From the NCBI GenBank assembly GCA_947646015.1, contig CANSEY010000037.1:1-35679 (forward strand): 35,679 bases of DNA, given 5' to 3'. Shown here one piece after another: positions 986 to 30,569 of this stretch (within the stretch, counting starts at the first letter, position 1; each line of letters opens with the position of its first letter). Made by a program: the position numbers and the translations under genes. The notes under the pieces are model-generated. The model had not been told where the DNA came from. It did no database searches and saw nothing but the letters and a program-made list of their open reading frames with translations. The stretch is from an uncultured Bacteroides sp. (GTDB lineage Bacteria; Bacteroidota; Bacteroidia; Bacteroidales; Bacteroidaceae).

Positions 986-2878
986 TTATTCTAAGTAAGT
1001 ATATCCGTAAAGTCCCGAACGATAATTGGACAGAAACTCTTTACCCTCTTCCAATGATATCTTTCCTTCTTTTACAGACTTGGTCACCCATGTTTCAAGG
1101 GTACGTACCAGTTTTTTAGGATTATATTGTACGTAATCCAACACTTCCGCTACTGTTTCACCATCAATAATCTGTTCGATATTATATCCCTTTTCATTCA
1201 CAGAAACGTGAACAGCATTCGTATCTCCAAACAGATTATGCATATCTCCCAAAATCTCCTGATAAGCTCCGACCAGGAAAACAGCCAGATAGTAAGGTTC
1301 TGTTTTCTTCAGACTATGCACAGGCAGATAATGAGCCACATTCCGGGTAGAAATGAAGTTTGCAATCTTTCCGTCCGAATCACAGGTGATATCCTGCAGG
1401 GTAGCCGAACGTTCCGGCTTCTCATCCAACCGCTGAATAGGCATAATCGGAAATATCTGATCAATCGCCCAAGAGTCGGGCAAGGACTGGAACAATGAGA
1501 AATTACAAAAATATTTATCCGCCAGCAACTTGGACAATCCCCGGAATTCATCCGGCGCGTGTTTCAAGCCTCCGGCGATCTGATTAATTTCCCGTGTAAT
1601 GGACCAATACAAACGTTCGATCTGAGCACGGGTCTTCAAATCCACAATACCATGACTGAACAGGTCGAGCGCTTCTTCCCGAATCTGTTGTGCATCATGC
1701 CATGCTTCCAGCATCTTATTCTGGTTCAACGAATCCCAGATACTGTACAGTTCCTGCACAAGCTCATGTGCATCCGGAGCGATTTCCTCTTCATCATCCC
1801 ATTCCGGAAGAGTAGCTGTTTCGAGCACCTCGAAGATCAAGACAGAGTGATGAGCCGTCAATGCCCGGCCGCTCTCGGTAATGATATTCGGATGCGGAAT
1901 GCCGTTTTTATCGCTGACATCTACCAATGTAGAAATGGAGTCATTCACATATTCCTGAATGGAATAGTTTACACTACCTTCACTATTGGAAGAACGGGTT
2001 CCATCATAATCAACGCCCAGTCCGCCGCCGATGTCCACAAACTCCACATTGAATCCCATAGAGTGAAGCTGCACGTAAAATTGAGAAGCTTCGCGCAAAG
2101 CCGTCTTAATGCGACGAATCTTCGTCACCTGGCTGCCAATATGGAAATGAATCAGTTTCAGGCAATCTTTCAATCCCTTGCTTTCCATAAAGTCAAGCGC
2201 TTCGAGCAGTTCGCTGGAAGTCAGACCGAACTTGCTGGCATCGCCACCCGATTCTTCCCATTTTCCACTGCCGGAAGAAGCCAGTTTTATACGAATACCG
2301 ATATTGGGCTGTACATTCAACTGTTTCGCCATTTTGGCTATCAGTTTCAATTCATTCATCTTCTCTACTACGAGGAAGATACGTTTGCCCATCTTTTGGG
2401 CAAGGAGCGCCAGTTCTATATAACTTTCGTCTTTATAGCCGTTGCAAACAATCAATGAGTCAGAATCCGTATTGACGGCAATCACCGCATGAAGTTCCGG
2501 TTTGGAACCGGCTTCCAGTCCGAGATTGAATTTCTTTCCGTGGCTGATAATCTCTTCTACCACAGGACGCATCTGGTTGACCTTAATGGGATAGATGATA
2601 AAATTCTCGGCTTTATAACCGTACTCTTCGGCAGCCTGTTTAAAACAGGAAGACATCTTTTCAATACGGTTGTCCAGAATATCCGGGAAACGCAACAGCA
2701 TGGGAGATGCCACATCCCGCAATTGCAACTCGTCAACCAGTTCCTTCAGGTCGACGGTCACTCCATCTCTCCGCGGTGTAACAACAACATGACCTGCGTC
2801 ATTAATACTAAAGTACGAAGTACCCCAACCCGTAATGTTGTAGAGTTCTTCAGAATCTTCAATACGCCACTTTCTCAT
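986..2878 (-). CDS. speA: biosynthetic arginine decarboxylase
   Basis: Decarboxylates arginine to agmatine, the entry to putrescine and spermidine synthesis. It is a PLP enzyme of the alanine-racemase fold (group IV decarboxylases). The 630-aa length matches the SpeA family. Visible landmarks are the PLP-lysine block YPIKVNQ (about residues 96-102), HFHIGSQ (about 245-251), the phosphate-binding DIGGGLGVDYDGT (about 282-294), and a C-terminal barrel after a helical insertion. The ATG at 2878 is preceded by a strong promoter 39-69 bp upstream, which supports this start. argB follows 59 bp downstream, and a CCGGC/GCCGG hairpin at 971-985 sits just after the stop without a clear T-run. Confidence 0.95.
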   Translation of the reverse strand: MRKWRIEDSEELYNITGWGTSYFSINDAGHVVVTPRRDGVTVDLKELVDELQLRDVASPMLLRFPDILDNRIEKMSSCFKQAAEEYGYKAENFIIYPIKVNQMRPVVEEIISHGKKFNLGLEAGSKPELHAVIAVNTDSDSLIVCNGYKDESYIELALLAQKMGKRIFLVVEKMNELKLIAKMAKQLNVQPNIGIRIKLASSGSGKWEESGGDASKFGLTSSELLEALDFMESKGLKDCLKLIHFHIGSQVTKIRRIKTALREASQFYVQLHSMGFNVEFVDIGGGLGVDYDGTRSSNSEGSVNYSIQEYVNDSISTLVDVSDKNGIPHPNIITESGRALTAHHSVLIFEVLETATLPEWDDEEEIAPDAHELVQELYSIWDSLNQNKMLEAWHDAQQIREEALDLFSHGIVDLKTRAQIERLYWSITREINQIAGGLKHAPDEFRGLSKLLADKYFCNFSLFQSLPDSWAIDQIFPIMPIQRLDEKPERSATLQDITCDSDGKIANFISTRNVAHYLPVHSLKKTEPYYLAVFLVGAYQEILGDMHNLFGDTNAVHVSVNEKGYNIEQIIDGETVAEVLDYVQYNPKKLVRTLETWVTKSVKEGKISLEEGKEFLSNYRSGLYGYTYLE

Positions 2879-2916
2879 TTTCTGTTATTCAGTGTTTTTA
2901 GTAAATAATTGGATGG

Positions 2917-2947
2917 CAAAAATACAGATTTATCTACAGGTTGCCAA
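2917..2947 (-). promoter_or_regulatory. speA(-argB) promoter
   Basis: On the minus strand a TTG (2947-2945) is followed by exactly 20 nt and TATTTTTG (2924-2917), matching the Bacteroides sigma-ABfr consensus TTTG/N19-21/TAnnTTTG. Expected transcription start is near 2910, giving a leader of about 30 nt before the speA ATG. Confidence 0.75.
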
Positions 2948-2995
2948 TTAATTGGATATTATTTCTTCCAATTGGTTTATATAACCGGTCTTAAT

Positions 2996-3523
2996 TTATA
3001 ATTCCAGCAGTTCCTGCAGACGTTGCACAGATGATTCAATCTGCCAGCGGTCTTCCAGTTCGTCCGCATTAAAGATATATTGCGCCTGCGTATAAAAAGG
3101 TGCGCGCTTTTCGAGTGCCTGAATGATGAAATCCATTAATTCCTCATCTTCCTTTCCCTGAAGAATGGGACGTTGCTGCTTGGCAATACGCAAGCGTCTG
3201 AACAGCACATCGGGATGCACATTCAGGAAAACGGTTTTTCCCGTCCGGTTCATAAACTCCATATTGTCATAAAAGCAGGGTGCCCCCCCGCCTGTAGAGA
3301 TAACGACGTTCTCAAACTCAGCTACCTCATGAAGCATATTTCTTTCCAACTCACGAAATCCGGCTTCACCCCGTTCCGTGAATAGTTCTCCGACAGTTTT
3401 ATGAAAACGTTCTTCGATATACCAGTCCAGATCAATGAACGGGATATTCAGTTTGCGGGCAAAAGCCTTGCCCAAAGTAGTTTTTCCGGCACCCATATAG
3501 CCGGTAAGGAAGATACGAACCAT
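2996..3523 (-). CDS. aroK: shikimate kinase
   Basis: Phosphorylates shikimate at the 3-hydroxyl with ATP in the chorismate pathway; cytoplasmic. The 175-aa length is typical. The P-loop GYMGAGKTTLGK (residues 8-19) comes first, then DLDWYIEE (residues 32-39; the acidic shikimate-binding motif) and STGGGAPC (about residues 76-83), and a lid region rich in Arg (QRPILQGK). The ATG at 3523 directly abuts a perfect 15-bp hairpin (3524-3557) that also contains a -7-like element. The gene lies between the speA promoter and the nitroreductase and is probably transcribed alone. Identification is secure. Confidence 0.95.
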   Translation of the reverse strand: MVRIFLTGYMGAGKTTLGKAFARKLNIPFIDLDWYIEERFHKTVGELFTERGEAGFRELERNMLHEVAEFENVVISTGGGAPCFYDNMEFMNRTGKTVFLNVHPDVLFRRLRIAKQQRPILQGKEDEELMDFIIQALEKRAPFYTQAQYIFNADELEDRWQIESSVQRLQELLEL

Positions 3524-3557
3524 AAATGATTAATTTTGCTCACAAAATTAATCATTT
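3524..3557. promoter_or_regulatory. perfect 15-bp palindrome over the aroK start and -7 element
   Basis: Arms at 3524-3538 and 3543-3557 are exact inverted copies separated by a 4-nt loop (CTCA). Each arm contains TAATTTTG, so a TAnnTTTG -7 element occurs on both strands; the minus-strand copy (3550-3543) is positioned to serve aroK, though no matching -33 TTG is seen. It could be an operator, a translation-blocking hairpin, or the 3' hairpin of the nitroreductase gene that ends at 3584. Confidence 0.6.
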
Positions 3558-3583
3558 AATGAATAATGAAGAATGATTCTCTA

Positions 3584-4186
3584 TTATTTAAAAACTTTTA
3601 TCCGTTCTTCCAGTGGCTGGAACTCTTTTTCTCCCGGCTGATTGACAGGCACTCCGAACGGCATTTCCGCAATCAGATGCCAATGTGCAGGCAAATTCCA
3701 TGCCCGACGCACCTCATCATCAATCAATGGATTATAATGTTGCAGGGAAGCACCGAAGCCCACATCTTCAAGCATCACCCAAACAGCCAGCTGATGCATC
3801 GCCGAGGTTTGTAATGACCATCCGGGGAAATTCTCCTGATAAGACGGGAAAGCTTCCTGAAGCCCCTTCACCACCTTCTGATCTTCAAAGAACAGCACCG
3901 TACCATATCCACAGGCAAAGGAATTGTCAATCTTTTCTTCGGTTTTCGCAAACGCTTCTCCCGGCACAATCTTCCTCAACGCATCTCTTACAATGTTCCA
4001 TAACTTTTTATGAGACTTGCCAAGAAGAAGCACCACACGGGTAGATTGAGAATTGAATGCCGACGGCACGTGTCTCACTGCCAGATTGATAATGCATTCT
4101 ATCTCCTGATCCGGAATAGGTGACTGGTCGGTAATCGAATAATAAGTCCGACGATTCTTCAAAGCTTCACTAAAAGTTCTTTCCAT
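3584..4186 (-). CDS. nitroreductase family protein (FMN-dependent oxidoreductase)
   Basis: Predicted flavin enzyme reducing nitro compounds or quinones with NAD(P)H; the physiological substrate is unknown. The 200-aa length fits the small HBN (hydroxylamine/nitroreductase YfkO/Frm2-like) branch. The N-terminal block SEALKNRRTYYSI carries the conserved Arg-Arg FMN-phosphate contact, VPSAFNSQSTRVVLLLG (about residues 40-56) is the P-S-x-F-N-x-Q-S-x-R motif of that branch, and GFGASLQHYNP occurs near residue 143. A strong ribosome-binding site (AAAGGAGC) precedes the ATG at 4186. It is divergent from rnhA across a 138-bp gap containing an inverted repeat. Confidence 0.88.
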   Translation of the reverse strand: MERTFSEALKNRRTYYSITDQSPIPDQEIECIINLAVRHVPSAFNSQSTRVVLLLGKSHKKLWNIVRDALRKIVPGEAFAKTEEKIDNSFACGYGTVLFFEDQKVVKGLQEAFPSYQENFPGWSLQTSAMHQLAVWVMLEDVGFGASLQHYNPLIDDEVRRAWNLPAHWHLIAEMPFGVPVNQPGEKEFQPLEERIKVFK

Positions 4187-4232
4187 AATAGCTCCTTTCT
4201 TAATTTTATTTTCTTAAACTCCTTATAAATTA

Positions 4233-4258
4233 GAACAAGCTTCTCTGCCAACTTGTTC
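4233..4258. promoter_or_regulatory. operator-like inverted repeat GAACAAG-N12-CTTGTTC
   Basis: Exact 7-bp arms at 4233-4239 and 4252-4258 with a 12-nt spacer lie between the divergent nitroreductase and rnhA genes. The right arm ends 10 nt before the rnhA -7 element, where a repressor or activator could act on both promoters. The protein that would bind is unknown. Confidence 0.45.
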
Positions 4259-4268
4259 GATTCCGGAA

Positions 4269-4276
4269 TATATTTG
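4269..4276 (+). promoter_or_regulatory. rnhA promoter, -7 element
   Basis: TATATTTG matches TAnnTTTG. No good -33 TTG lies 19-21 nt upstream (the nearest TTG, at 4253, is 13 nt away). The predicted start near 4283 gives a leader of about 42 nt and rules out an initiation codon upstream at 4253. Confidence 0.55.
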
Positions 4277-4324
4277 TACCTTCGCACCGTCAATGCTGTT
4301 GACATAATCATTCATTATCAGAAA

Positions 4325-4960
4325 ATGGCTAAAGAAAAGTTCTACGTAGTATGGGAAGGAGTGACGCCGGGAGTATATGCTTCCTGGACGGATTGCCAGC
4401 TCCAGATCAAGGGGTATGAAGGTGCAAAGTACAAATCGTTCGACACCCGTGAAGAGGCGGAACGTGCACTGGCCTCGTCACCTTACGCCTACATCGGCAA
4501 AAATGCGAAGAAAAAAACGGAAGCTGCCCGAACCGGTTCCGATACACTGCCTGCTTCCGTCATTGACAATAGTCTGGCAGTCGATGCTGCGTGCAGTGGC
4601 AATCCCGGCCCGATGGAGTATCGGGGGGTACACGTGGCAAGCCGCCAGGAAATTTTTCATTTCGGCCCGATGAAAGGTACAAACAATATCGGAGAGTTTC
4701 TGGCCATCGTGCACGGACTGGCATTGCTGAAACAGAAAGGATTTGATATGCCCATTTATAGCGACAGCGTGAATGCCATCAGCTGGGTGCGACAGAAAAA
4801 ATGCAAAACCAAACTTCCGCGAAATGAGGAAACTGAAGAACTGTTTAAAGTAATAGAACGGGCAGAGAAGTGGCTCAGAGAGAACACTTACACTACCCGT
4901 ATTCTTAAATGGGAAACCAAGGCGTGGGGAGAGATTCCGGCAGATTTCGGCAGAAAATAA
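4325..4960 (+). CDS. rnhA: ribonuclease HI with N-terminal viroplasmin domain
   Basis: Degrades the RNA strand of RNA:DNA hybrids. From ATG 4325 the protein is 211 aa. Residues about 4-45 (FYVVWEGVTPGVYASW...) form the caulimovirus-viroplasmin domain, which binds hybrids in eukaryotic and bacterial type-1 RNases H. Residues about 80-211 are the catalytic domain: VDAACSGNPGP (first Asp), NNIGEFLAI (Glu), YSDSVNAI (second Asp) and the late Asp of IPADFG, so all four metal ligands are present. The frame is open upstream to a TTG at 4253, but that codon lies before the -7 element, so I chose the first ATG, where the viroplasmin homology starts. It converges with the GtrA gene; the stop codons are 12 nt apart. 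Confidence 0.93.
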   Translation: MAKEKFYVVWEGVTPGVYASWTDCQLQIKGYEGAKYKSFDTREEAERALASSPYAYIGKNAKKKTEAARTGSDTLPASVIDNSLAVDAACSGNPGPMEYRGVHVASRQEIFHFGPMKGTNNIGEFLAIVHGLALLKQKGFDMPIYSDSVNAISWVRQKKCKTKLPRNEETEELFKVIERAEKWLRENTYTTRILKWETKAWGEIPADFGRK

Positions 4961-4972
4961 TAGCCGGAAAGT

Positions 4973-5404
4973 CTATTCTGCGACTTGATCAGCAGCCTGT
5001 TCCTTCTTATGTTTAAACACAAAGCGGAGCATCAGAAAATTAGTGGGAACAGCCACAGCGAGCACACACAAGGGAGCTATCTCCTGATCTACATTCAGAT
5101 ACAGGAACAAATTGAACAATCCCATATGTATCAGATAGTTCACCAAATGGCTGCCTCCAAATCCCAAAGCCCTTTTCAAAGAAGGGTTGCTACGGAACGT
5201 GAAATAAGAAGTCAGAAAGAAATTACAGATAAAACTCGTCACATAGCCTATCGTGTAGGCAATATTCAAGTTGGTCATTTCGTATTCCTGCAACAGATAA
5301 TAAACCCCATAATGTATTCCGGCGGCCAACGTTCCCACCGTGCAATAACGAATAAACTGGTAGCGTTTACTCTTCGATTGAAATACTGATTTTACAATTT
5401 CCAT
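4973..5404 (-). CDS. GtrA-family membrane protein (polyprenyl-phosphate-sugar flippase)
   Basis: GtrA proteins have four membrane segments and are thought to flip undecaprenyl-phosphate-linked monosaccharides to the periplasmic side for surface-polysaccharide decoration. This 143-aa protein shows four hydrophobic helices (about residues 20-38, 47-67, 80-102 and 108-127) and the family motifs RYCTVG and AYTIGY.TSFICNFFL. It is the last gene of the minus-strand glycan operon, 44 bp after the GT-C gene. It closely resembles the second GtrA at 21271-21654. Its partners are probably the lipid-linked sugar synthase in the fusion protein (6594-8495) and the GT-C enzymes upstream. Confidence 0.87.
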   Translation of the reverse strand: MEIVKSVFQSKSKRYQFIRYCTVGTLAAGIHYGVYYLLQEYEMTNLNIAYTIGYVTSFICNFFLTSYFTFRSNPSLKRALGFGGSHLVNYLIHMGLFNLFLYLNVDQEIAPLCVLAVAVPTNFLMLRFVFKHKKEQAADQVAE

Positions 5405-9340: not shown

Positions 9341-11176
9341 CTATAATGCTTGCATATCGTTTAGTCTTTTATAATAACCGTCTAATTCCAATAATTCTTC
9401 GTGGCGCCCACGCTCTACGATTTCCCCTTCATAGAGCACACAAATCTCATCCGCATTTTTGATAGTAGAAAGACGGTGAGCAATTGCAATCGTGGTACGC
9501 GTCTTCATCAATCTCTCCAATGCTTCTTGTACCAAACGTTCCGATTCAGTATCCAGTGCAGAAGTAGCCTCATCCAGAATCAGGATGGGAGGATTCTTCA
9601 GAATAGCACGGGCGATGCTGACACGCTGTCTCTGTCCACCGGAAAGTTTGCCGCCACGGTCACCGATATTTGTATTATATCCTTCCGGCTTTTCCATAAT
9701 AAAATCATGGGCATTGGCAATCTTAGCGGCCTCTATGACTTGTTCCATAGTTGCATTTTCTACGCCAAAAGCAATATTATTGAAAAATGTATCATTAAAA
9801 AGAATGGCTTCTTGATTTACATTGCCAATCAAACTGCGCAAATCGGCAATACGTACATCTTTAATACTTGTACCATCGATGGTGATATCTCCTCCTTGCA
9901 CATCATGATAACGTGGCAATAAATCTACGAGCGTCGATTTTCCTGAGCCTGACTGTCCTACCAAAGCAACTGTCTTTCCCTTTGGCACTGTTAAGTTCAC
10001 ATGTTTCAACACTTCTCTTTTACCATCATAGCTAAAGCTTATATCTTTAAACTCAATCCGATCATTCATTCCAGTCAATGGTTTCGGATTAGGAATTTCT
10101 TTAATATTATTTTCAGCCTTCAATATTTTGTCCACGCGTTCCATAGAAGCAAGCCCCTTAGGGATATTATAACCAGCCTTGGCAAAGTCTTTCAACGGAT
10201 TTATCACGCTATAAAGAATAACCATATAAAATATAAACGTCGGTGCAGTCAATGACGAATTATGCCCTAAAATCAAAGCACCACCAAACCATAATACAGA
10301 TACAATCAGAATTGTTCCCAAGAACTCACTCATCGGATGAGCCAAAGCTTGTCGCATAGCCACTTTGTTGACTGCATCACGAAGCTCATTACTGCACCTC
10401 GTAAAACGATTTATCATTCTGTCCTCTGCAATAAACGCTTTGATAATACGCAAACCACCCAATGTTTCTTCCAACTGAGACATTGTATCACTCCACTTTC
10501 CTTGTGCCTCCAGTGATTGACGCTTTAGTTTTCTTCCGACCTTACCCATCAGCCAGCCCATAGCCGGCAATACCAAAACGGTGAAAAGAGTTAACTTCCA
10601 GCTGGTAGCAATCAATGTTATAAAATACAATATAATCATGATAGGGCTCTTTATCAACATGTCCAATGAACTGGTAATAGAGTTTTCCACCTCTCCCACA
10701 TCACCACTCATACGAGCTATAATATCTCCTTTTCTCTCCTCTGAGAAAAAGCCCATCGGCAAACGCATTACCTTCGCATATACCATGATACGGATATCCC
10801 TGACAACTCCTGTACGCAATGGAATCATCACAGCTGAAGATGCAAAATAACAGGACGTTTTAAATAAAGTCATCAAAGCCAGAAACAGTCCCAGAAAAAT
10901 CAAAGCAGTAGTAGGACCATTATCCTGAATCATTTGGGAAACATAATAATAGAAATTATTTATCGCAACATCTTTAAAACCGGCAGTTCCCCATTCCATA
11001 TACTCATATACCTTATTATTCTCTCCTGTTTTAAACAAAATATCCAGAATCGGAATTAACAAAGTAAATGAAAACACATTGAATACAGCTGACAAGATAT
11101 TCAGCAAAATAGCCCATCCGATATACTTCTTATATGGCGACACAAAACGTCGCATCAGTTGCAAAAATTCCTTCAT
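9341..11176 (-). CDS. MsbA-like lipid/glycolipid ABC exporter (fused TMD-NBD)
   Basis: A 611-aa half-transporter. Six membrane helices lie in about residues 18-345, and the nucleotide-binding domain spans about 372-605 with Walker A GQSGSGKST (407-415), signature LSGGQRQR (511-518), Walker B ILILDEAT (531-538) and the H-loop in AHRLS (H567). The family exports lipid A-core, O-antigen lipids or other amphipaths across the inner membrane. It is the first gene of a minus-strand glycan operon, so a glycolipid substrate made by the neighbouring enzymes is likely. Bacteroides have several such transporters, so I do not assign the symbol msbA. Confidence 0.88.
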   Translation of the reverse strand: MKEFLQLMRRFVSPYKKYIGWAILLNILSAVFNVFSFTLLIPILDILFKTGENNKVYEYMEWGTAGFKDVAINNFYYYVSQMIQDNGPTTALIFLGLFLALMTLFKTSCYFASSAVMIPLRTGVVRDIRIMVYAKVMRLPMGFFSEERKGDIIARMSGDVGEVENSITSSLDMLIKSPIMIILYFITLIATSWKLTLFTVLVLPAMGWLMGKVGRKLKRQSLEAQGKWSDTMSQLEETLGGLRIIKAFIAEDRMINRFTRCSNELRDAVNKVAMRQALAHPMSEFLGTILIVSVLWFGGALILGHNSSLTAPTFIFYMVILYSVINPLKDFAKAGYNIPKGLASMERVDKILKAENNIKEIPNPKPLTGMNDRIEFKDISFSYDGKREVLKHVNLTVPKGKTVALVGQSGSGKSTLVDLLPRYHDVQGGDITIDGTSIKDVRIADLRSLIGNVNQEAILFNDTFFNNIAFGVENATMEQVIEAAKIANAHDFIMEKPEGYNTNIGDRGGKLSGGQRQRVSIARAILKNPPILILDEATSALDTESERLVQEALERLMKTRTTIAIAHRLSTIKNADEICVLYEGEIVERGRHEELLELDGYYKRLNDMQAL

Positions 11177-11203
11177 TATTTGAAATAAAATAAGTTAAGG
11201 CTG

Positions 11204-11232
11204 CAAAGATACAATAAAACTGTCTAACAGTT
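11204..11232 (-). promoter_or_regulatory. promoter of the ABC-exporter glycan operon with a small inverted repeat
   Basis: Minus-strand TATCTTTG (11211-11204) is a perfect TAnnTTTG box 28 nt upstream of the ATG at 11176. No TTG occurs at the -33 position. Instead an inverted repeat AACTGT-CTA-ACAGTT (11218-11232) occupies the -33 to -14 interval, where a regulator would control RNA polymerase access. Confidence 0.55.
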
Positions 11233-11311
11233 GAAGGTTTCTTTCAATAATTAATACGAATTATATAATAGCCACCTTCTTGACCATTTATTCGTCTATT
11301 TCACTCCAACA

Positions 11312-13402
11312 CTACTCATTATCAAAAGATATGGGCACCACATGATAATAAACCCCATGAGATCTCCGGTACGATTTCACTCCCAACTTTTGCAGAATAC
11401 GCCCCAAATAAGATACTTGCCGAGGTGAAAACTTCATCTTACTAGCCTTCTGTATTCGTTGTAGCAAATCCGCAGCAAGCAACCATTCTCCTGCCTCTTC
11501 GTCGGCCGCCGCCCGATAATATACCTGAAACAATTGCTCGATCGCAGGAGACTGCTCAAACTCCTGATTAGACTCCGTCATAATAGCTTCCTCTTCTTCA
11601 TCAAACCAATACCGTTCATTTTTATAAAGTGCCGTCATTGCTTGTGCATAAAGCTGCTCATAATCAATGGGACGCACCACATCAATCACTCCCGTCACTT
11701 CGACGCCGATAAAACGGCGACTACCGGAAGTGTCTGTCAGTAAGTCTTTATGATTACTCGTCCCGATAAAAGAAGCATACCGCCGAAGTGATTCCACAGC
11801 TGACGCATTCGGGCGACGGGTATTAACAACCGGTTTTTGCAAAATATGTTTAAGGAATGATTGCTGATTGACACCTATCTGATCAAACTCATCCATATTG
11901 ATGAGAAGAAAACGATTCAGATACAACTCGGCGTCCCTTTTACGGCTAAAGTCAATGCTGTCCGTATAATACGCCTGCAAACAAGGAGGCAGAATCAGAC
12001 GGCAAAAGGTGGACTTACGATAAGCCTGCGGACCGATTAAAATAGGTGAAGTACTGTTCGCATGATTTTTGTCAACTCCACGCCAGTGCGCCACTGTACT
12101 GAGAAACCAACGACGAAAAAGTTGTCCCCAATGAGGATTATCACAAGGAACTCTTTCAGCCAGGTCACGGATGTGGTCTTTACCGTCCCAATGGGGAAGA
12201 TCATAAAGAAATTCCTCGACAGGGTGATAAACGGGAACATGATCGGAATTCAGATATCGGACCACATCCTTATCCCAAAGTTTGATGCCCTCATACATCG
12301 CATTCATCGTAATACTTGCCATCACCCGTTTGTCTATGGGGCGAAAATAAAAGTTGAAACTGTTCCGCTCACGGTATTCCACGCTCGAAGTCAGCATATT
12401 GAAACGAAACTCATAGCGGCGTTTCATAAACTCATCTGTCTGCATGACAAACAATTGCTCCGGCAGCAAACTACTTTTATCGGCAAAACCCTCGCACGTA
12501 CCATACACGTTCTTCACCGTCTCGCGAATCAGGAATTCATCTTTCGGTAAACGATAATGAGCACGTGCCCATCGCACGGTGTCTTCCTGTGGAATACCGG
12601 CACGAAAACACTGCTCAGCCAGACAAACAAGCAATGAGTGTATATCATCGCCTGGGCGGTATCCTTTTTGCTCGGCAAATGCTCGGGCAAATGCTGCTTC
12701 AAAAAGAACAGAAAGTGCTTCGTAACTATCATATCCGGGAACAAGCCGCTGTAAAGGAGAAGCCTGCGCCTGTACCTGCTCTCGATAGGTGGTTTCCCCC
12801 GGCAAAGATGCTGGCTGTTTCAGATAAACAGGCATGGCTTCGGGATTAAAATACAGCTCCGGGTCGAAAGTTAATCGGCAATACTGTTCCAGCGAAGGCT
12901 CTCTTAATTCGATATCAAACGGAAGTTGGGGCTGGTAATATTTCACAGCCAGACGATAAGCATGCGCATGAAAGACTTCCGCCTGTTCGCGATTATCAGG
13001 CAGACGGTTGTCGGGATACGTAAAACGAACCCATATCTTTACAGACTTTCCTGAAGAACCGATAAAAGCAAGATACGTCTGAGGCAGTTCCTTCACACAC
13101 TCCTTCACCTCATCAGCTTCCATACGTCCGGATAACCCGTTGACCTGAAGCATAACGATTCCATTATATTCGGCCATCGCCATCACCCCGTTTTTTCTGA
13201 CAAAAGCTGCCGCCGGAAGTATCTTCGGGACCCTCTCTATATAATCATTTTTATCACCGGGAAGTATATAAGGCAGGACTTCTCTCATATTAGAGACCAG
13301 TTGTGCTTTAGTTTCCTTTTTCATCTGCTCTACGAGCTGTTCAATCTTCAACGTACGCATCGTATTTACTTTGCCATCGTCTCTCACTTGTGTTATTCTC
13401 AT
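11312..13402 (-). CDS. VirE-type primase-helicase: BT4734_N + VirE P-loop ATPase + DUF3874
   Basis: From ATG 13402 the protein is 696 aa. Residues about 45-180 match the BT4734-like N-terminal domain (primase-like). Residues about 400-570 are the virulence-associated-E helicase core, with a P-loop-type GPQAYRKST (457-465; the usual glycine before the lysine is Arg), Walker B INMDEFD (ending 507), sensor GTSN (547-550) and an arginine-finger-like GSRRF (560-564). The remaining C-terminus matches DUF3874. Such proteins resemble replication initiators of phages and mobile elements. The open frame extends to 13474, but that codon lies upstream of the -7 element (13464-13457), so the shorter start is chosen. 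It is divergent from the HU-like gene and associated with the flanking 133-bp inverted repeats. Its cellular role is unknown. Confidence 0.88.
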   Translation of the reverse strand: MRITQVRDDGKVNTMRTLKIEQLVEQMKKETKAQLVSNMREVLPYILPGDKNDYIERVPKILPAAAFVRKNGVMAMAEYNGIVMLQVNGLSGRMEADEVKECVKELPQTYLAFIGSSGKSVKIWVRFTYPDNRLPDNREQAEVFHAHAYRLAVKYYQPQLPFDIELREPSLEQYCRLTFDPELYFNPEAMPVYLKQPASLPGETTYREQVQAQASPLQRLVPGYDSYEALSVLFEAAFARAFAEQKGYRPGDDIHSLLVCLAEQCFRAGIPQEDTVRWARAHYRLPKDEFLIRETVKNVYGTCEGFADKSSLLPEQLFVMQTDEFMKRRYEFRFNMLTSSVEYRERNSFNFYFRPIDKRVMASITMNAMYEGIKLWDKDVVRYLNSDHVPVYHPVEEFLYDLPHWDGKDHIRDLAERVPCDNPHWGQLFRRWFLSTVAHWRGVDKNHANSTSPILIGPQAYRKSTFCRLILPPCLQAYYTDSIDFSRKRDAELYLNRFLLINMDEFDQIGVNQQSFLKHILQKPVVNTRRPNASAVESLRRYASFIGTSNHKDLLTDTSGSRRFIGVEVTGVIDVVRPIDYEQLYAQAMTALYKNERYWFDEEEEAIMTESNQEFEQSPAIEQLFQVYYRAAADEEAGEWLLAADLLQRIQKASKMKFSPRQVSYLGRILQKLGVKSYRRSHGVYYHVVPISFDNE

Positions 13403-13456
13403 TTTTTCTTTCGCTGTTTGTCCTGCTTGCGTGTGTAGGGCAATATATATTTTGCA

Positions 13457-13487
13457 CAAAAGTACTGTAAACATTCTATGTAAACAA
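13457..13487 (-). promoter_or_regulatory. promoter of the VirE-type gene
   Basis: Minus-strand TTG (13487-13485), 20-nt spacer, TACTTTTG (13464-13457): a full match to the Bacteroides consensus. Predicted start is near 13450, leaving a leader of about 48 nt to ATG 13402. Confidence 0.75.
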
Positions 13488-13547
13488 GTTTCTGATCATA
13501 AGTTTCATTCCCATCTCCTCTCCCTCTACTAGAAAAGAAAAAATATA

Positions 13548-13680
13548 TTTTAGTCTCACGGTCTCACTACTTTTACATAATCATCAAATAATTAATATAT
13601 TATAGGATGAGAGATACTTTTTACAGAGGTATCTCTCATCATTTCCTCACTGAAATTACTCTATTCTAACCTGTCTCTCA
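13548..13680 (+). repeat. left copy of a 133-bp inverted repeat flanking the HU-like gene
   Basis: Aligned without gaps to the reverse complement of 14669-14801, I count 118 of 133 identical bases (about 89%). It begins with TTTTAGTCTCACGGTCTCAC, has an internal hairpin with 12-bp arms (13606-13617 and 13629-13640, 11-nt loop), and carries several TGAGAGAT/ATCTCTCA motifs. More partial copies follow (13692-13703). It lies 61 bp upstream of the VirE promoter -33 box and 137 bp before the HU promoter, outside both predicted transcripts. The 641-bp gene-free stretch 13403-14043 holds this repeat, two divergent promoters and the HU leader. Confidence 0.9.
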
Positions 13681-13816
13681 CCTTCTTTTGATTATCTCTC
13701 ATTCTGCTTTCCAACTTCCATTATTTAATTTCAGACCTATACATTTCTCCTTTTAGAAGTACTTTAAGGCGCATATATTTTACCATTCATTATCATGCAA
13801 ACAATCCTATAATTGC

Positions 13817-13847
13817 TTGTTTTACAACTATTATTGTCGTATCTTTG
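13817..13847 (+). promoter_or_regulatory. promoter of the HU-like gene
   Basis: TTG (13817-13819), 20-nt spacer, TATCTTTG (13840-13847): a full consensus match. Predicted start is near 13854, giving an unusually long leader of about 190 nt before ATG 14044. Confidence 0.78.
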
Positions 13848-13867
13848 AAAGACGTTATTCATCATAC

Positions 13868-13945
13868 TACCCGGGTGAACCGACCTGTTCACCCAGGTAC
13901 ACAGATACGTTCTCGAAGGTGCAATGATCGGTTCACCCGGGTAGA
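13868..13945. promoter_or_regulatory. leader with three GTTCACCC(G/A)GGTA sites and a 17-bp hairpin
   Basis: A perfect 17-bp inverted repeat (arms 13868-13884 and 13929-13945, 44-nt loop) sits just after the predicted HU transcription start. Each arm holds one copy of GTTCACCCGGGTA, in opposite orientations. A third copy, GTTCACCCAGGTA (13888-13900), lies in the loop and can itself fold as ACCTG/CAGGT. This looks like a multi-site operator, perhaps for autoregulation, or a structured RNA leader. Confidence 0.6.
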
Positions 13946-14043
13946 ACGATGAAGATGTCAGTAAGATGACACGCAGATAAAGGCTTTAAATGCCGAAGAG
14001 ATAAGTAACACCATATATAAACAACAGATAAACAACAATTAAG

Positions 14044-14655
14044 ATGGCAGTACAATTCGAATTTTATAAGAATCCCGTTCAGGGAGAAGAAGAGGGGGAA
14101 ACAAGTTATCATCCCAGAGTCGTGAATTTTCAACACGTGACTACCCAAAGACTGGCAGTCGAAATTCACTCGGCAACTACCTTTGGCAAGGCCGAAGTGG
14201 AAGCAATGTTAATGGAACTCAGTCGGTGCATGGGCAACCACTTACGCGAAGGGCAAAGAGTACATCTTGACGGGGTCGGCTATTTTCAGATCACATTACA
14301 AGCAACAGAGCCGATACATTCCATGGCCGCACACGCTGACAAAGTGAAGTTTAAATCGGTCAGTTTCTTGGCGGACAGAGATTTAAAAGGTGAGCTTATA
14401 GGTATGCATGCACAACGCTCAAAGTATAAACCCCACTCGGCTACCCTCTCCCAGGAAGAAATAGACAAAAAATTAACCGGGTACTTCGCTACGCATACGG
14501 TTTTGACCCGCTCTGATATGCAGTCACTTTGCCAATTCACACACAGTATGGCGGCGCGCCATATTCGCAGGTTGAAAGAAGAAGGTTCTTTGCAGAATAT
14601 CGGAATTCGTACGCAACCGATTTATGTGCCGTGTCCAGGACATTATGGGAAATAG
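14044..14655 (+). CDS. HU-like DNA-binding protein with C-terminal helix-turn-helix (HU-HIG type)
   Basis: A 203-aa protein. Residues about 1-125 resemble the HU/IHF fold of the Bacteroidetes HU-HIG group: an N-terminal MAVQFEFYKNP strand, a TTFGKAEVEAMLMELSRCMGNHLREGQRVHLDGVG-type helical and strand core (cited here only as a region, residues 42-76) and a basic arm. Residues about 138-203 look like a winged helix (LTRSDMQSLCQFTHSM followed by AARHIRRLKEEGSL). It should bind and bend DNA. The likely targets are the iteron-like repeats around it or the GTTCACCC sites in its leader. It is divergent from the VirE-type gene and ends 13 bp before the right copy of the 133-bp inverted repeat. Confidence 0.85.
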   Translation: MAVQFEFYKNPVQGEEEGETSYHPRVVNFQHVTTQRLAVEIHSATTFGKAEVEAMLMELSRCMGNHLREGQRVHLDGVGYFQITLQATEPIHSMAAHADKVKFKSVSFLADRDLKGELIGMHAQRSKYKPHSATLSQEEIDKKLTGYFATHTVLTRSDMQSLCQFTHSMAARHIRRLKEEGSLQNIGIRTQPIYVPCPGHYGK

Positions 14656-14668
14656 TTGTAAAATAGAA

Positions 14669-14801
14669 TGAGAGATAGGGTAAAATAGGGTAATTCCAGT
14701 GAGAAAAGAATGAGAGATACCTCTGTAAAAAGTATCTCTCATTCTATAATATCCTAGTTATTAGGTGATTATGCAAAAGTAGTGAGACCGTGAGACTAAA
14801 A
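14669..14801 (-). repeat. right copy of the 133-bp inverted repeat
   Basis: Inverted partner of 13548-13680 (118/133 identical, no gaps). Its hairpin has a perfect 14-bp stem (14707-14720 with 14732-14745, 11-nt loop). It follows the HU stop codon by 13 bp, so it would be transcribed and may also act as the terminator region of that gene. No obvious target-site duplication flanks the outer ends of the two copies. Confidence 0.9.
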
Positions 14802-14841
14802 AAATTCTTTTATAGCAGACTTAGATATAATCACAACACCC

Positions 14842-14871
14842 AAAGAGGAAGCACAAATGAGCTTCCTCTTT
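14842..14871. terminator. hairpin terminator after the DUF5722-like gene
   Basis: Perfect 11-bp stem (14842-14852 with 14861-14871) and an 8-nt loop, 14 bp downstream of the minus-strand gene ending at 14885. A TTT lies at one base and AAA at the other, so it may work in both directions and separate the HU module from the lipoprotein operon. Confidence 0.65.
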
Positions 14872-14884
14872 TACCTAATATCGC

Positions 14885-17077
14885 TTATGGAATATCTTGA
14901 ATAATTCCTTCCCAACTATCAATCCCTATTCGAGATAAATACTGTTCAAAATAATCATCTTCTTCATCTGTATCCGCTTTTTGATAGGTTGTCCATACAG
15001 GCTTGGCTTCACCATTATGAGGTGCATCGGCATACTTACGCAATCCCAAACAAGCACCATCTCCCAAATGGTCAAACCAACTATGCCATTGTATGCCATT
15101 AATACCGTCCAAATTGTTAATCTTCTTCCAACCATAAGCAAATCCGGCAGCCTGATCCTGCAAATCATCATCTTCATAAGATGGCGAACATGTGCCCGCT
15201 TCAGAAAGCCATACAGAACGTCTGATAGTTCCTTTATATTGATTTCGGGATGTTTTCACCCACTTATCCAACACTTCCAAATTTTTCAAGGTCACATATT
15301 CCGTATCCATAGAATAAGTTGCCTGTTCATCATCCCAAGTACACGGGTTACCTAACTGAGCCGGGTAACTATGACACGCCAATGACCAGAAGAAATCACC
15401 TTCGCTTTCACTGAACTGATTCATAAAGTCGAGCATATCTCTTACTTTATACCAACCGCCACCGGCAGCGATATTCCATCCATGCGAGAAAGAGATAAAG
15501 ACTTCTGAGTGCTGGTCATATTGATGCGCAATATTATAGCACATACGCATCGAACGGAGATAAGTATCCATAAACGTGGCAATCGGTTTGTCACCCATAT
15601 TGGTCCAATGACTTCCTCCATCCACTTCGTTATGTATAATCCAGTGCGCTATGCGCATATTAGGGTCACTATATCTTTCTGCCAGGAAGTCAAGTGCTGC
15701 AGCGTAACAATTTGTAGACTCTATTGTGGTCATATTGGGCATTGTATAAGGAGCTATACCATTAAAATCCGGATGTTTCAAAAGAGTACCGGCATCTCCG
15801 GTAGGAGGAACCAGCAAAATACCTGCTACAGAGATTCCACGTTTACTCGTTTGCTCCAACACAGCATCAAATGAACTCTTCATATATCCCTCATTAAAAT
15901 AATATGTCCTGCCACCGTAAGTATGCGGAATATCTCCTTCCTGTTGAGAAAGATGCATGAAATGAGAAATAGGAATGTTGATGGTGGCACTGGCAATACC
16001 CAAATCATCCAAATCAGATGCAAGGAATCCATGGTTTATCAATCCTCCCAACCCCTTCTTAGATTTTAAAGGAATAGCCTCAACACTTTGTTTTACGTGT
16101 ATTTTATCCACGTTCGCATAGCGGGCATGAGAAACAATCTCATCCTTGGAAGCTCCTTCTTTGTATATAGCCCACTTAGACAATAAACGATCATACTTAT
16201 AGTCACCTATAGTAACATATCTATCCAACTGAACGTTAAAAGAGCCGTTTGATAAAGGTGTTTTATTTTCCACCTTTTCCACTTTGAACATATCCACAAA
16301 TGGTGGAATCTCTCCCAAGAAGAAAGTACCTTCTCCCGTATAGTTACCTTGAATACTGATCGTACTCTCTCCTACCACCACATCAGTTACATGGCAATCA
16401 TATTCTTTATTCAGATAATCTTTAATTCCTTGTTCGTACTTCTCTTTATTAAGTGCTTCATTATTCTCGTCCTCTTCCGCCTGTTTTTCCTCATCATTCA
16501 TCATACGTAGGCGTATATTACGCATTTGTATGATATTATTAGGCTGGTCTCCAAAATCCAGACGCAGAAAATCTTTCACTTTTCCCCAATCAAACTCCTG
16601 TCTATATTTCTTTAGACGAACGCTGAATGAAGCCCATTCCGTAGAAGCAGGAACGGTTCCCGCACTCATGCTATGAGTAGCATCAATCCCATTTTTTGCA
16701 TCAGCAAAAAAGAGTTCAAGGTTACTCATCCCCATTTCCGTCTGATATTCAAATTCAAGAACATTACATTCTTCGGGAACATCTTCTTTAAACAAACCGG
16801 CAGTCGCCCAAGGATCACCATTAGTAGTTTCTATCGTATAACTACTGTCTTCATTCTGAGTTAAGGTTACTCCCGACTTATACGGTCCATCCAATAACAT
16901 ATAAACAGGTGGGATAACAATTTCTTCAGGAGGAATAACTTCTCCTCCATCGTCTTCAATAAAGTCATCATTACAGGAAGACAAGTTCATCACAAAAAAT
17001 GCCATTAAAAACAACATGCCACATCGCCCTAACAGGCGTTCAGGCCTTCTCGTAAAGAAAGCTTTCAAATTTTCCAT
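14885..17077 (-). CDS. DUF5722-like lipoprotein with GH clan-A-like active site and N-terminal CBM-like domain
   Basis: A 730-aa exported protein. A signal peptide ends in lipobox LSSC (lipid Cys35), followed by an acidic linker typical of surface lipoproteins. Residues about 55-195 are a beta-rich, carbohydrate-binding-like domain absent from the paralogue at 17108. Residues about 215-330 are a shared beta domain, and 335-730 a TIM-barrel-like region with IIHNEVD (Asn483-Glu484, like the clan-A acid/base) and VWLSEAG (Glu626, like the nucleophile). A glycoside hydrolase is therefore likely, but the substrate is unknown. It follows its paralogue by 30 bp in a two-gene operon with no SusC/SusD genes nearby, so this is not a standard polysaccharide-utilisation locus. 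Confidence 0.78.
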   Translation of the reverse strand: MENLKAFFTRRPERLLGRCGMLFLMAFFVMNLSSCNDDFIEDDGGEVIPPEEIVIPPVYMLLDGPYKSGVTLTQNEDSSYTIETTNGDPWATAGLFKEDVPEECNVLEFEYQTEMGMSNLELFFADAKNGIDATHSMSAGTVPASTEWASFSVRLKKYRQEFDWGKVKDFLRLDFGDQPNNIIQMRNIRLRMMNDEEKQAEEDENNEALNKEKYEQGIKDYLNKEYDCHVTDVVVGESTISIQGNYTGEGTFFLGEIPPFVDMFKVEKVENKTPLSNGSFNVQLDRYVTIGDYKYDRLLSKWAIYKEGASKDEIVSHARYANVDKIHVKQSVEAIPLKSKKGLGGLINHGFLASDLDDLGIASATINIPISHFMHLSQQEGDIPHTYGGRTYYFNEGYMKSSFDAVLEQTSKRGISVAGILLVPPTGDAGTLLKHPDFNGIAPYTMPNMTTIESTNCYAAALDFLAERYSDPNMRIAHWIIHNEVDGGSHWTNMGDKPIATFMDTYLRSMRMCYNIAHQYDQHSEVFISFSHGWNIAAGGGWYKVRDMLDFMNQFSESEGDFFWSLACHSYPAQLGNPCTWDDEQATYSMDTEYVTLKNLEVLDKWVKTSRNQYKGTIRRSVWLSEAGTCSPSYEDDDLQDQAAGFAYGWKKINNLDGINGIQWHSWFDHLGDGACLGLRKYADAPHNGEAKPVWTTYQKADTDEEDDYFEQYLSRIGIDSWEGIIQDIP

Positions 17078-17107
17078 AATTTCAGTTTTAGTTAATAATG
17101 TCGTTGA

Positions 17108-18835
17108 TTAAAAATTCTCAATAATATTCCAATCAGGAATTCCAATTAAAGGTAAGAATTGTTCGAAGTATTCATCTTCTTCATTTGTGCCTGCTTTTCG
17201 ATAAACTTCCCACACAGGTTTGGCTTCTCCTCTGTAAGATTCATCCAAGTATTTACGCAATCCGAAGCAAGCTCCGTCTCCCGGATGATCAAACCAATTA
17301 TGCCATTGTAGCCCATCAATCCCTTCCAATGCGTTGATTTTCTTCCAGGCGAAAGCCAAACTAGCCGCTTGCTTCTGAAAATCTTCATCCGAATAAGTAG
17401 GAGAATTTACTCCAGCCTCAGAAAGCCAGACAGAGCGCTTAATAGTCCCTTTATATTTATTTTCTTTGGTAAGCGCCCACTTACTCAGAACTTCCAGATT
17501 TTTAAACGTAATAAATTGGGTATCCATGGAAAACGTTGCGTTCGGATCAATCCAAACACATGGATTCGTCAAATCCTGAGAATAGCTATGATAAGCTAAT
17601 CCCCACTGAAAGTCTCCTTCTACCCGACTATAAACATTCAACAAATCAATGATTTCTTTGCTTGTATAGAGCCACCATCCTACATTCGCTATCTGTGTCC
17701 AGGAATGTGTAAAAGACCCCAAAACCTCTGCCTGTTTATCATATTGGCGTACTATATTATAACATATACGCATTGATTTTATATAGGTATCCGTAAATAC
17801 AGTAAGAGGTTTTATTCCCATATTTGTCCAGTCTATACAGCCGTCTACCTCATTATGCATAATCCAATGAGCTATGCGCCCGTAGCGATTGTCCGCCGTA
17901 CAATATCTTTTAGCCAGAAAATCAAATGCCGCTGCATAACAATTCACCGATTCCAGAGTAGTCATATTAGGCATTGTATAAACCCCTCTTTCATAATCCG
18001 GATGTTGCAGCAATGCCCCCAGGTCAGGGTCTACGCATTTAGCTGCCGGTTCGACAAGAATGATGGCAGCAACAGCAATATTCCGTTTGGCTGCTTCTAA
18101 AAGAGGAACGTCAAGTACAGTCTTGAGGTAACCTTCATCCATATAATAGGTTCTTCCCCCATAAGTATGCGCAATATCTCCCGCTCTTGGCGTCAGATGC
18201 ATAAACTGAGTGATACAAACATTAATCGTAGCACTACTTATCCCCAACGAAGTAAAATCCGATATATATTGGTTAGGAATAATTCCACCCAACCCTTTCT
18301 TTGAAGTCAGTTTGATAGCCGGAAGATTCTGGAACGCATGAATTTCATCTGCTTGATGCGCATGAGAAACCAGTTGGTCTCTTTCTACTCCCTCTTTATA
18401 AATAGCCCACTTTGACAAAAGACGGTCATATAATGCTCCATCCCTTTCTACATAGCGCTCTAACTCAATTTCAAAAGATGAATCTTCCAATTTTACCTTA
18501 TAAGGAGCCTTCTTCACATCTATGATATCCAAATAAGGAGGAATCTCACCTAAAAAGAAGTTGCTTTCACCGGTATATTCACCAGTAACGCGAACGGAAG
18601 ATTCCATTACTGAGACCTGGGAAATTTTACATGAATAGCTTTTCCCCAAATAAGCATTCAGATCTTGTTCGTGTTGAATATCTTCTTCATCAAAAGGAGA
18701 TTCAGGTATCTCCTCTTTCTCTTCCTCGTGACAGGAAGAAACAATGAAAGGACAGCAGGACAGAAACAAAAGAATAATAAACGACTCAATATAAGCCTTT
18801 TTTATTAAAAAAAAATGACTTTTCAATAGCTCCAT
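17108..18835 (-). CDS. DUF5722-like lipoprotein, short paralogue without the CBM-like domain
   Basis: A 575-aa lipoprotein: signal peptide ending VSSC (Cys35), then residues about 50-165 matching the beta domain of the longer neighbour, and about 175-575 matching its barrel. The putative catalytic pair is kept: MHNEVD (Asn328-Glu329) and VWLSEAG (Glu473). Whole blocks such as KWAIYKEG, YGGRTYY, MPNMTT and YKGTI.RSVWLSEAG are shared with the downstream gene, so the two arose by tandem duplication with gain or loss of one domain. It is first in the operon, after a promoter at 18872-18905. The function is probably hydrolysis or transfer on an envelope glycan, which is inference. Confidence 0.78.
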   Translation of the reverse strand: MELLKSHFFLIKKAYIESFIILLFLSCCPFIVSSCHEEEKEEIPESPFDEEDIQHEQDLNAYLGKSYSCKISQVSVMESSVRVTGEYTGESNFFLGEIPPYLDIIDVKKAPYKVKLEDSSFEIELERYVERDGALYDRLLSKWAIYKEGVERDQLVSHAHQADEIHAFQNLPAIKLTSKKGLGGIIPNQYISDFTSLGISSATINVCITQFMHLTPRAGDIAHTYGGRTYYMDEGYLKTVLDVPLLEAAKRNIAVAAIILVEPAAKCVDPDLGALLQHPDYERGVYTMPNMTTLESVNCYAAAFDFLAKRYCTADNRYGRIAHWIMHNEVDGCIDWTNMGIKPLTVFTDTYIKSMRICYNIVRQYDKQAEVLGSFTHSWTQIANVGWWLYTSKEIIDLLNVYSRVEGDFQWGLAYHSYSQDLTNPCVWIDPNATFSMDTQFITFKNLEVLSKWALTKENKYKGTIKRSVWLSEAGVNSPTYSDEDFQKQAASLAFAWKKINALEGIDGLQWHNWFDHPGDGACFGLRKYLDESYRGEAKPVWEVYRKAGTNEEDEYFEQFLPLIGIPDWNIIENF

Positions 18836-28979: not shown

Positions 28980-30461
28980 ATGAAAAACAAATTATGCGCT
29001 CTTTCCCTTATCTTGTTACTAATTTCTTGTTCAGACGAGATTCAACAATTTGATGATTCTACAAAGCAAACACAAAATGAGAATAAGGAATTAACAACTA
29101 GATCACTTGATACAGACGATCATGCTTTGGGTTTTGGATATGATGTTACAGGTGATTATTTAGACAAATATTCAATTAGAAACTCTGTAATTGATATTGT
29201 AAAATTGCGTGAGTTTGATAAGAACAGCATCATCACCAGCAATGAAGTTAGCGGAAAGAACCAATATTACTATGGTTACACTTCGTATGACTATATAAAA
29301 GAAATTACAAAAAAAACAGGTGTTAATACCTCTGTTAGCTGTGATAGTATACCAATAGTCAAAGGAAATTTAAGTTTTACAGGTTCTTTCTCTAAAGAAA
29401 ATTTCACAAGGCATGAATTATCTACCAAATATTCTTATGCAAGTGCGGATATCTGCAAAGACGTGAGATGGCTCCGATTGGCTGAGAGTGTCGATGTGTT
29501 ATCAAATTTCTTGACTGACAAATTCAAGAGGGATATTTCTAACATGACATCCCCTGAACAGTTCGTAAAAGATTATGGAACACATGTATTAGCAGATATA
29601 ACAATTGGGGGTGTCCTCCGAGTCATGTATAGTTCCAGCATAATAAAGGAAGATGATCAAGAGAAAAAAACGAAAGTTATAAAAGCTGGATTGAAAGGAG
29701 TATTAGCAAAAATCGGATTGAGTGCTGACGTGGATAAAACAGTAATAGAGAATGTATCGACTAGTGCGGAGAACATAAACCGAACTTTACATTTGGAGTA
29801 CAAAGGCGGTGACGGAGTTGGTGGAACATATAATTTAGAAACAGGTTATCCTACTATTGATAAATACTCATGGGAAAAATCAGTAACTGCTGCTAATGCT
29901 GGTTTAACAAAAATAAACTGGGATAAAGCATACCCTATTTATGAATTTATTTCTGATCCAGTAAAGAGAGAACAGGTAAAAAAAGCAGTGATAAAATATA
30001 TAAATGACAGTCAGTTGTCAGTTTTACAATTAAATCCTATTTATGAAATGTTCGCACCGACGATGGACGATCGATTTTATGCCTTTTCTTGGGATGAAGT
30101 TCAAATGCAAATAAATAAATGGAATAATGAATTTTGGGGATTTAAGGGATATATATTAGCAAAACCTGGAGTAAATACAATACCTATCTATGAGATGTTC
30201 GCACCGACGATGAACGATCGGTTTTATGCCTTTTCTTGGAATGAAGTTCAATGGCAAATAAATGATTGGAAAAATGAGAATTGGGGGCTTAGAGGTTACA
30301 TATTATCAGAACCAGAAGCTAATACACAACCTATTTATGAAATGTATTCGCCTCTTTTAAATGATCGTTTTTATGTTTGGTCATGGGAAGAAGTTCAAAT
30401 GCAAATAAGTAAGTGGGAGAATGAGTATTGGGGACATAGAGGTTATGTATTTAGTAAGTAG
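28980..30461 (+). CDS. MACPF-domain lipoprotein, BSAP-like antimicrobial toxin with three C-terminal repeats
   Basis: A 493-aa exported lipoprotein. The signal peptide ends in LISC (lipid Cys17). Residues about 45-345 are the membrane-attack-complex/perforin domain, with the signature YGTHV-x6-GG (YGTH at 199-202, GG at 210-211). Residues 352-493 are three tandem units of about 49 aa, each with PIYEM.(A/S)P, (D/N)DRFY, EVQ.QI..W and WG..GY, resembling DUF5648-type repeats; they may bind a cell-surface glycan. MACPF proteins of Bacteroides called BSAPs kill related strains by pore formation after binding LPS or an outer-membrane protein. The surrounding glycosyltransferase locus, the ISAs1 relic upstream and the IS256 element downstream support a horizontally acquired BSAP cassette. 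Killing activity is inference. Confidence 0.88.
   Translation: MKNKLCALSLILLLISCSDEIQQFDDSTKQTQNENKELTTRSLDTDDHALGFGYDVTGDYLDKYSIRNSVIDIVKLREFDKNSIITSNEVSGKNQYYYGYTSYDYIKEITKKTGVNTSVSCDSIPIVKGNLSFTGSFSKENFTRHELSTKYSYASADICKDVRWLRLAESVDVLSNFLTDKFKRDISNMTSPEQFVKDYGTHVLADITIGGVLRVMYSSSIIKEDDQEKKTKVIKAGLKGVLAKIGLSADVDKTVIENVSTSAENINRTLHLEYKGGDGVGGTYNLETGYPTIDKYSWEKSVTAANAGLTKINWDKAYPIYEFISDPVKREQVKKAVIKYINDSQLSVLQLNPIYEMFAPTMDDRFYAFSWDEVQMQINKWNNEFWGFKGYILAKPGVNTIPIYEMFAPTMNDRFYAFSWNEVQWQINDWKNENWGLRGYILSEPEANTQPIYEMYSPLLNDRFYVWSWEEVQMQISKWENEYWGHRGYVFSK
30033..30458 (+). repeat. three tandem repeats of about 147 bp inside the MACPF gene
   Basis: Units begin near 30033, 30180 and 30327. Units 1 and 2 share long identical stretches, such as ATGTTCGCACCGACGATG and TTTTATGCCTTTTCTTGG, while unit 3 is more diverged. 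The near identity of units 1 and 2 points to recent duplication and makes copy-number change by recombination possible. Confidence 0.85.
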
Positions 30462-30466
30462 AAATA

Positions 30467-30498
30467 GGTACTGTCCCATTTTATGCAAATAGAAAACT
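30467..30498 (+). repeat. solo IS-end-like sequence between the MACPF gene and the IS256 element
   Basis: GGTACTGTCCCATTTTATGC and the following bases resemble the right terminal inverted repeat of the adjacent IS256 element (GACACTGTCCACAATTTTGT on the minus strand, from 31893) with a 2-nt gap. It lies outside the target duplication of the intact element, so it may be the remaining end of a related element. Confidence 0.45.
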
Positions 30499-30569
30499 TC
30501 TGAATTTAAATTGGAAATTAGTAAAGGCACTATAAAATATTTTGTGTAAATGGAAATACGGGATTCCAG

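Follow-up and report, generated by a model that had tools for sequence, protein, structure and literature searches.

Why should a single HU-like gene be enclosed by an inverted repeat of 133 bp? The question is raised by a stretch of 35,679 bp (here called the window) on contig CANSEY010000037.1 of an uncultured Bacteroides sp. (GCA_947646015.1), in which two long inverted arms bracket the gene for an HU-HIG protein and the gene for VirE, a replication helicase, lies next door. Equivalent repeats of other sequence surround VirE at a third of the VirE loci tested in the genus, and one such unit sits at unrelated sites in two species. Judged from these arrangements, the window repeats could quite possibly be iteron-bearing ends to which VirE binds, belonging to one of a family of Bacteroides units that are mobile or once were. 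A few such units occupy different positions in related genomes, suggesting a kind of mobile element that has not been described before; the arrangement was not found described in the open-licence PMC literature.

The repeat and its contents

The left arm (13548–13680) and the right arm (14669–14801) are inverted copies that align without gaps and agree at 118 of 133 positions, which confirms an original prediction made from the DNA letters before any database search. BLAST within the window stretches the pair to 13538–13680 and 14669–14810 (143 columns, 87.4% identity, E 4e-44), the longest inverted pair in the repeat listing of the 35.7 kb. By pair alignment, motif count and folding, the left terminal inverted repeat occupies 13538–13695 on the forward strand, with its outer end to the left, and the right one, of the same layout, 14661–14811 on the reverse strand, with its outer end to the right. 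The outer end of the left arm is A-rich, TTTTAGTCTCACGGTCTCAC, and is followed by an AT-rich spacer, a hairpin, ATGAGAGATAC/GTATCTCTCAT, and more copies of TCTCTCA further inward. Folded as single-stranded DNA, the left arm forms a stem of 13 bp (z −2.6) and the right arm one of 14 bp (z −4.3); of the two stems predicted, the 14-bp one stands and the 12-bp one has to be corrected by one pair.

The repeat encloses a single gene, as predicted. It lies at 14044–14655 on the forward strand and encodes an HU-HIG protein of 203 aa (PF18291, E 1.1e-33, 116.4 bits against a curated cut-off of 26.2); an HU-HIG protein is also listed in a table of PMC11035120. Also enclosed, and missing from the prediction, is a palindrome, H (13858–13967, without strand; z −5.5), which sits between the left arm and the HU gene and was delimited by repeat listing, folding and comparison. 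It consists of GTTCACC and ACCCGGGTGAAC modules. The tract from the left arm's inner edge as far as the start codon of HU (13697–14046, forward strand) is 77% kept in a unit without HU, L067, which is described below. The VirE gene (11312–13474, reverse strand; open reading frame and profile search) probably starts at 13402, judged from relatives, for a product of 696 aa; it stands outside the left arm, and in other units it is found inside the repeats.

A search by open reading frames and profiles found no recombinase between the arms, in line with the prediction, and none from VirE to the DUF5722 gene. Comparison of 10801–11500 and 14812–15400 with the arms gave chance-level matches only, so that no third arm was found in these two stretches. 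(A known RNA family was also considered and rejected, the only two matches being at chance level and below the gathering score.)

The VirE protein

Profile search finds a BT4734-like_N domain, a VapE-like domain and DUF3874 in VirE. The helicase part resembles PriRep1, the primase-helicase of SaPI5, and belongs with the PriRep/VapE-like helicases; the VIA-align rows span residues 313–694, the N-terminal part being barely covered. PriRep1 is a protein of the staphylococcal pathogenicity islands (SaPIs), in which origins of this kind contain iterons beside an AT-rich stretch. The likeness to the SaPI replication module lies in the helicase; the arms carry iteron-like arrays, which VirE may bind and melt. 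The difference is that here two inverted copies stand at the ends of the unit, and that no integrase was seen in a listing of open reading frames (not a full domain scan). With the BT4734-like archaeo-eukaryotic primase family the window VirE shares the PF08800 match (E 6.5e-47). Motif I of that family is hhhDhD/E (PMC5862659); the accessible part of the account mentions no flanking inverted repeats, and the motif I acids seem unconserved in VirE here. The NCBI product name, "BT4734/BF3469 family protein", is also carried by annotated plasmid records.

Equivalent repeats at other VirE loci

Is the arrangement peculiar to the window? In the same assembly, a VirE–HU pair on contig C4 lies between inverted repeats of 124 columns that are unrelated in sequence to the window arms, and on C12 VirE lies between inverted repeats of 46 columns. 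Among the matches listed at E ≤ 1e-80, 60 VirE loci were collected and 59 tested (L191 was too short) for an inverted match, at a threshold of 50 bits, between the 1.3-kb stretch that follows the VirE stop and the 2.2-kb stretch ahead of the VirE start. Such a repeat surrounds VirE, with or without HU, at 20 of the 59 loci, against one in direct orientation; in a cross-locus control, 6 of 472 pairs exceeded 50 bits, the 472 including pairs of loci that share an end family. The window group is missed by this geometry because both of its arms are found on the same side of VirE as HU. With that group added, these are the terminal inverted repeats found, and in L215/L272 only are they seen to bound the unit at both ends.

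The original prediction had proposed to look for the repeat beside other HU-HIG/VirE pairs. As a sequence it does not recur at the other HU-HIG loci of the assembly (the motif array lies within 1.5 kb of HU-HIG at 1 of 15 loci, that of the window); as a layout in other sequence it recurs at many VirE loci. The worry that the repeat might occur without HU or VirE genes is likewise half justified: such copies exist, and many other VirE loci have equivalent repeats.

Between the arms of these units lies VirE alone, VirE with HU, or either with extra genes, such as Bro-N (L079), AbiEii with an AbiEi-like gene below the cut-off (L072), or a helix-turn-helix (HTH) gene and an M78 peptidase gene (L190). 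VirE is the gene common to them, the HU-only window group excepted, and the usual order appears to be end, VirE, H-like palindrome, HU (where there is one), end, with the arms at the 3' ends of the genes. Palindromes scoring at least 24 precede the VirE start at 57 of 68 loci, a count that has no control and includes some of the arms' own hairpins; L074 is misplaced in it because its VirE is split. In L215 and L272 the open reading frames of at least 80 aa between the arms are VirE and HU only, with neither transposase nor integrase. No shared transposase was seen across the units, and no integrase in the other VirE/HU units by open reading frame listing, which is not a full domain scan. The other reading frames inside L184 resemble those of an insertion sequence (IS) by eye.

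A DUF6078-type gene lies in or just outside several VirE-only units (L086 9388–9822, L258 2268–2705, L193 6723–7157 and L209 3695–4129); the L086 copy was identified by scanning, and the other three look alike by eye.

Anatomy of the arms

By eye, an arm consists, from the outside inward, of one or two copies of a short motif, an AT-rich spacer of about 35–45 bases, an inverted copy, and more copies. The commonest shared 7-mer varies from element to element, and the layout is constant: the motif is TCTCTCA in the window, CTATCAC in L183, L184, L187, L188 and L190, CCAGCAC in L209, ATCTGCA in L193 and L194, ACCCTCA in L213, GTGACAA in L084 and AGTCTAG in L223. At 27 of the 28 strong loci (the exception is L205), the count of the commonest 7-mer in the left arm was equalled in no more than 5 of 100 base shuffles, and at 23 of the 28 the rest of the stretch contains the shared 7-mer 0 to 4 times. 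Together with the AT-rich spacer, the hairpin and the PriRep1-like helicase, the motif arrays suggest that each arm may be an origin-like binding site of VirE, with HU assisting. The prediction of a replication site served by HU and a primase-helicase thus fits the anatomy, the origin function itself being what we infer.

Copies without HU and spread in the genus

The window assembly (G000) has five arm copies, two in the window and one each on C5, C19 and C32, all of which are also found by the hairpin pattern; the last three are without HU. H accompanies the single arms on C5 and C32, none being detected on C19, and most of the HU-less copies examined also contain it. In the fetched window-family copies that have H, the palindrome is placed 130 to 240 bp from the arm hairpin, on its inward side. 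Since the loci were mostly fetched for the arm, the pairing of H and arm is no unbiased count, and C44 of the same assembly has H without a listed arm match. The HU-less unit L067 of B. faecis G163, which is the same copy as that on C5, aligns to window positions 13697–14046 and then to 14661–14824, the right arm; it is the window cassette with the reading frame of HU gone and the left arm mostly missing. (The window assembly may itself be a mixture: the window contig is 91–95% like G163, and at C2 (103296) and C29 (3772) the same queries reach bit scores almost equal to those in another species, G167, which has no VirE match.)

The first DNA search, in a family set of 151 genomes, found the 158-bp sequence in three, namely the window's own and two with matches of 25–27 bases. 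In the genus set of 158 Bacteroides genomes, the hairpin pattern occurs in 19, with 1 to 23 copies per positive genome (reversed control, 2 of 158), and VirE relatives at E ≤ 1e-80 occur in 75. Motif and helicase occur together in 11 of 18 genomes against 8 of 140 (p 6e-8, uncorrected for relatedness), and it is this co-occurrence, with the layout, that points to a link between them. In G163, the window orthologue L064 has HU bracketed in the same manner, and 8 of the 11 loci with a VirE at least 80% like that of the window have the HU-side arm pair (window, L064, L165, L166, L167, L170, L171 and L172). Arms of the window and L064 are more alike within a genome (88.0 and 85.1%) than between genomes (81.8 and 82.4%), with HU at 94.1%. 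This suggested concerted evolution of the arms; seven other pairs show no clear sign of it, and it is therefore not claimed.

Four further loci (L070, L071, L073 and L075) have arm pairs about 600–900 bp apart that enclose no match to VirE or HU. They come from two species with 11 and 13 hairpins.

Movement and inversion

Do the units change place? Loci L215 and L272 belong to different species and have in common only a block of 3.4 kb, 93% identical, which ends at most 4 bases from the detected arm ends in both loci. The genome of L215 also contains the left flank of L272 (at 96%), some 12 kb away from the L215 unit and with no unit within 1.5 kb, and at the L272 site genome G154 has a copy without most of VirE. 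Among 86 loci, 30 pairs share a central block only (33 with a looser filter that missed flank matches near the block). In the pairs other than L215/L272, the shared block is mostly genes or the arms are undetected. After this recount the case for mobility rests on L215/L272 and on the L067 site.

The original prediction had proposed a search for empty sites, and these were found for L067. Three genomes (G163, G000 and G267) have the unit; nine others (G153, G161, G162, G226, G203, G164, G296, G154 and G187) have the same flanks without it, and in three of these nine the matched flanks are 32–33 bases apart, against 674 with the unit. The prediction of a MITE-like element (MITE, miniature inverted-repeat transposable element) with its own DNA-bending protein is upheld to the extent that HU-less units of the same kind exist and that one is polymorphic between species at one spot. 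At this spot G154 has an arm of the CCTATCACC family and, after it, another palindrome. (The intergenic spot looks hot-spot-like by eye: in L369, L370, L377 and L367, from different species, it is taken up by palindromic arrays that differ or by an arm from another family.) In the neighbourhood of another gene, a full unit is seen in G163 and none is visible in G226 or G153, and G162 and G161 have lone arms of two different families. L265 and L084 align over the full length of the unit (83%) and break near the arms; they share one flank, which in L084 is about 2.1 kb more distant and has a gene in between. This difference could reflect movement or the gain or loss of a gene. Overall, the evidence of movement is narrow.

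Inversion of the cassette, which the original prediction had offered, is rejected. HU has the same orientation relative to VirE in eight window-group loci, gene orientation relative to the flanks is constant in the orthologous groups compared by eye, and two B. finegoldii strains, more than 99.6% identical, agree in orientation, all in assemblies, not reads. (In one of the two strains the VirE-side arm is 82 bp shorter, the missing bases lying between two copies of the motif.)

A phage or plasmid origin was considered and rejected as well. There are 16 plasmid records with a VirE relative at E ≤ 1e-30, and as many phage records at E ≤ 1e-20. L258, in a record named Bacteriophage sp. (MT838091), contains a VirE unit with inverted repeats of 107 columns at 1927–5054. 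Its flanks are 97–99% like the chromosomal locus L271 of G296, and it therefore looks like host DNA. Only three viral contigs have VirE relatives; none has a long repeat, and two are cut at the gene.

Interpretation

How might such a unit work? VirE, a replicative helicase with a primase-like N-terminal part, would bind the short repeats of each end and melt the AT-rich spacer, and copying of the unit would begin at the ends. HU, and perhaps H, would shape the complex of VirE and ends, and the copied or excised unit would go in elsewhere by means of VirE itself or of host or foreign functions. VirE binding and the identity of the insertion catalyst are what we infer here, and VirE itself could conceivably be the transposase. 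The window would then be a derivative, with ends around H and HU only and VirE next door, in an assembly that also has HU-less derivatives. A bolder version, on the unlikely side as a whole, is that replication from two inverted iteron ends is what moves the unit, driven by VirE with HU as an architectural helper and with neither transposase nor integrase, each lineage having its own motifs and shedding VirE-less and HU-less derivatives. Parvovirus Rep helicases with their terminal origins offer an analogy at most.

Several observations weigh against a family of mobile units whose ends VirE binds. No repeat above 50 bits was found at 39 of the 59 VirE loci, and the ends of the window group do not enclose VirE. 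Within the 11-locus subfamily, L164 and L168 are without the arm pair, and that of L169 measures 20 bases and that of L171 39 columns. The acids at positions 86 and 88, assigned to motif I by eye, vary among 67 sequences, and the shared 7-mer has 5 to 11 further occurrences in the stretch at 5 of the 28 loci, all of the window group. Only one of the 30 central-block pairs (L215/L272) ends at the arms in both loci. Many units are at the same site in several species, and movement is therefore rare. No target duplication is visible in L215 or L272, nor by eye at the L067 site, and no enzyme for cutting and joining was found.

The arms could instead be chromosomal replication or partition sites, of the nature of origin-like operators, in a resident VirE–HU system that does not move by itself, the HU-less copies being accessory binding sites. 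The motif arrays and the helicase would suit such a system, as would the many orthologous loci that are stable across species and the dispersed copies with H; the L215/L272 unit at unrelated sites, the presence or absence of the HU-less unit between genomes, and the range of 0 to 23 hairpins per genome make it rather unlikely. Autoregulation of VirE and HU from operator repeats spread by chance events agrees with the intergenic position of arms and H, and with H in the upstream region of VirE/HU. It is improbable, given that arms of usual units stand at the 3' ends of genes and bound the L215/L272 unit.

The arms might otherwise mark MITE-like elements that are not autonomous and depend on an unrelated transposase acting in trans, with VirE and HU as passengers. 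Long terminal inverted repeats, internally deleted derivatives (for instance, L352 and the HU-less units) and scattered short copies are features of MITEs and of transposons with terminal inverted repeats, and the varied cargo would fit as well. Here, however, the ends are motif arrays with an internal hairpin, the arrays are specific to the element, VirE is the common gene, and neither a shared transposase nor a target duplication was seen, and this explanation is unlikely. A phase-variable HU cassette, to which long and similar inverted repeats around a single gene would be well suited, is very improbable with the constant orientation described above and no adjacent recombinase. The structure that the original prediction picked out is real, and two of its three guesses are on the right track; it is best regarded as a derivative of a family of VirE/HU units with iteron-like ends.

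Other genes in the window

Two adjoining DUF5722 genes occupy 14888–18835, with repeats 72–84% identical at the DNA level. At 28980–30461 there is a gene for a MACPF-domain protein, with a DUF5648 part that has three tandem repeats of 147 bp (30036–30476), the later copies being 82% and 64% like the first. A gene for a Mutator-family transposase with imperfect inverted ends of 33 bp (30524–31895) looks like an ordinary IS.

Implications

VirE/HU pairs are common in Bacteroides, and to our knowledge their function is unexplained. Placing them between origin-like ends would give them a testable function and would account for some of the dispersed hairpins. If the units do copy themselves without a transposase, this would be a new route of gene movement; genes for an AbiEii toxin, Bro-N and an HTH–peptidase pair are found inside some of the units.
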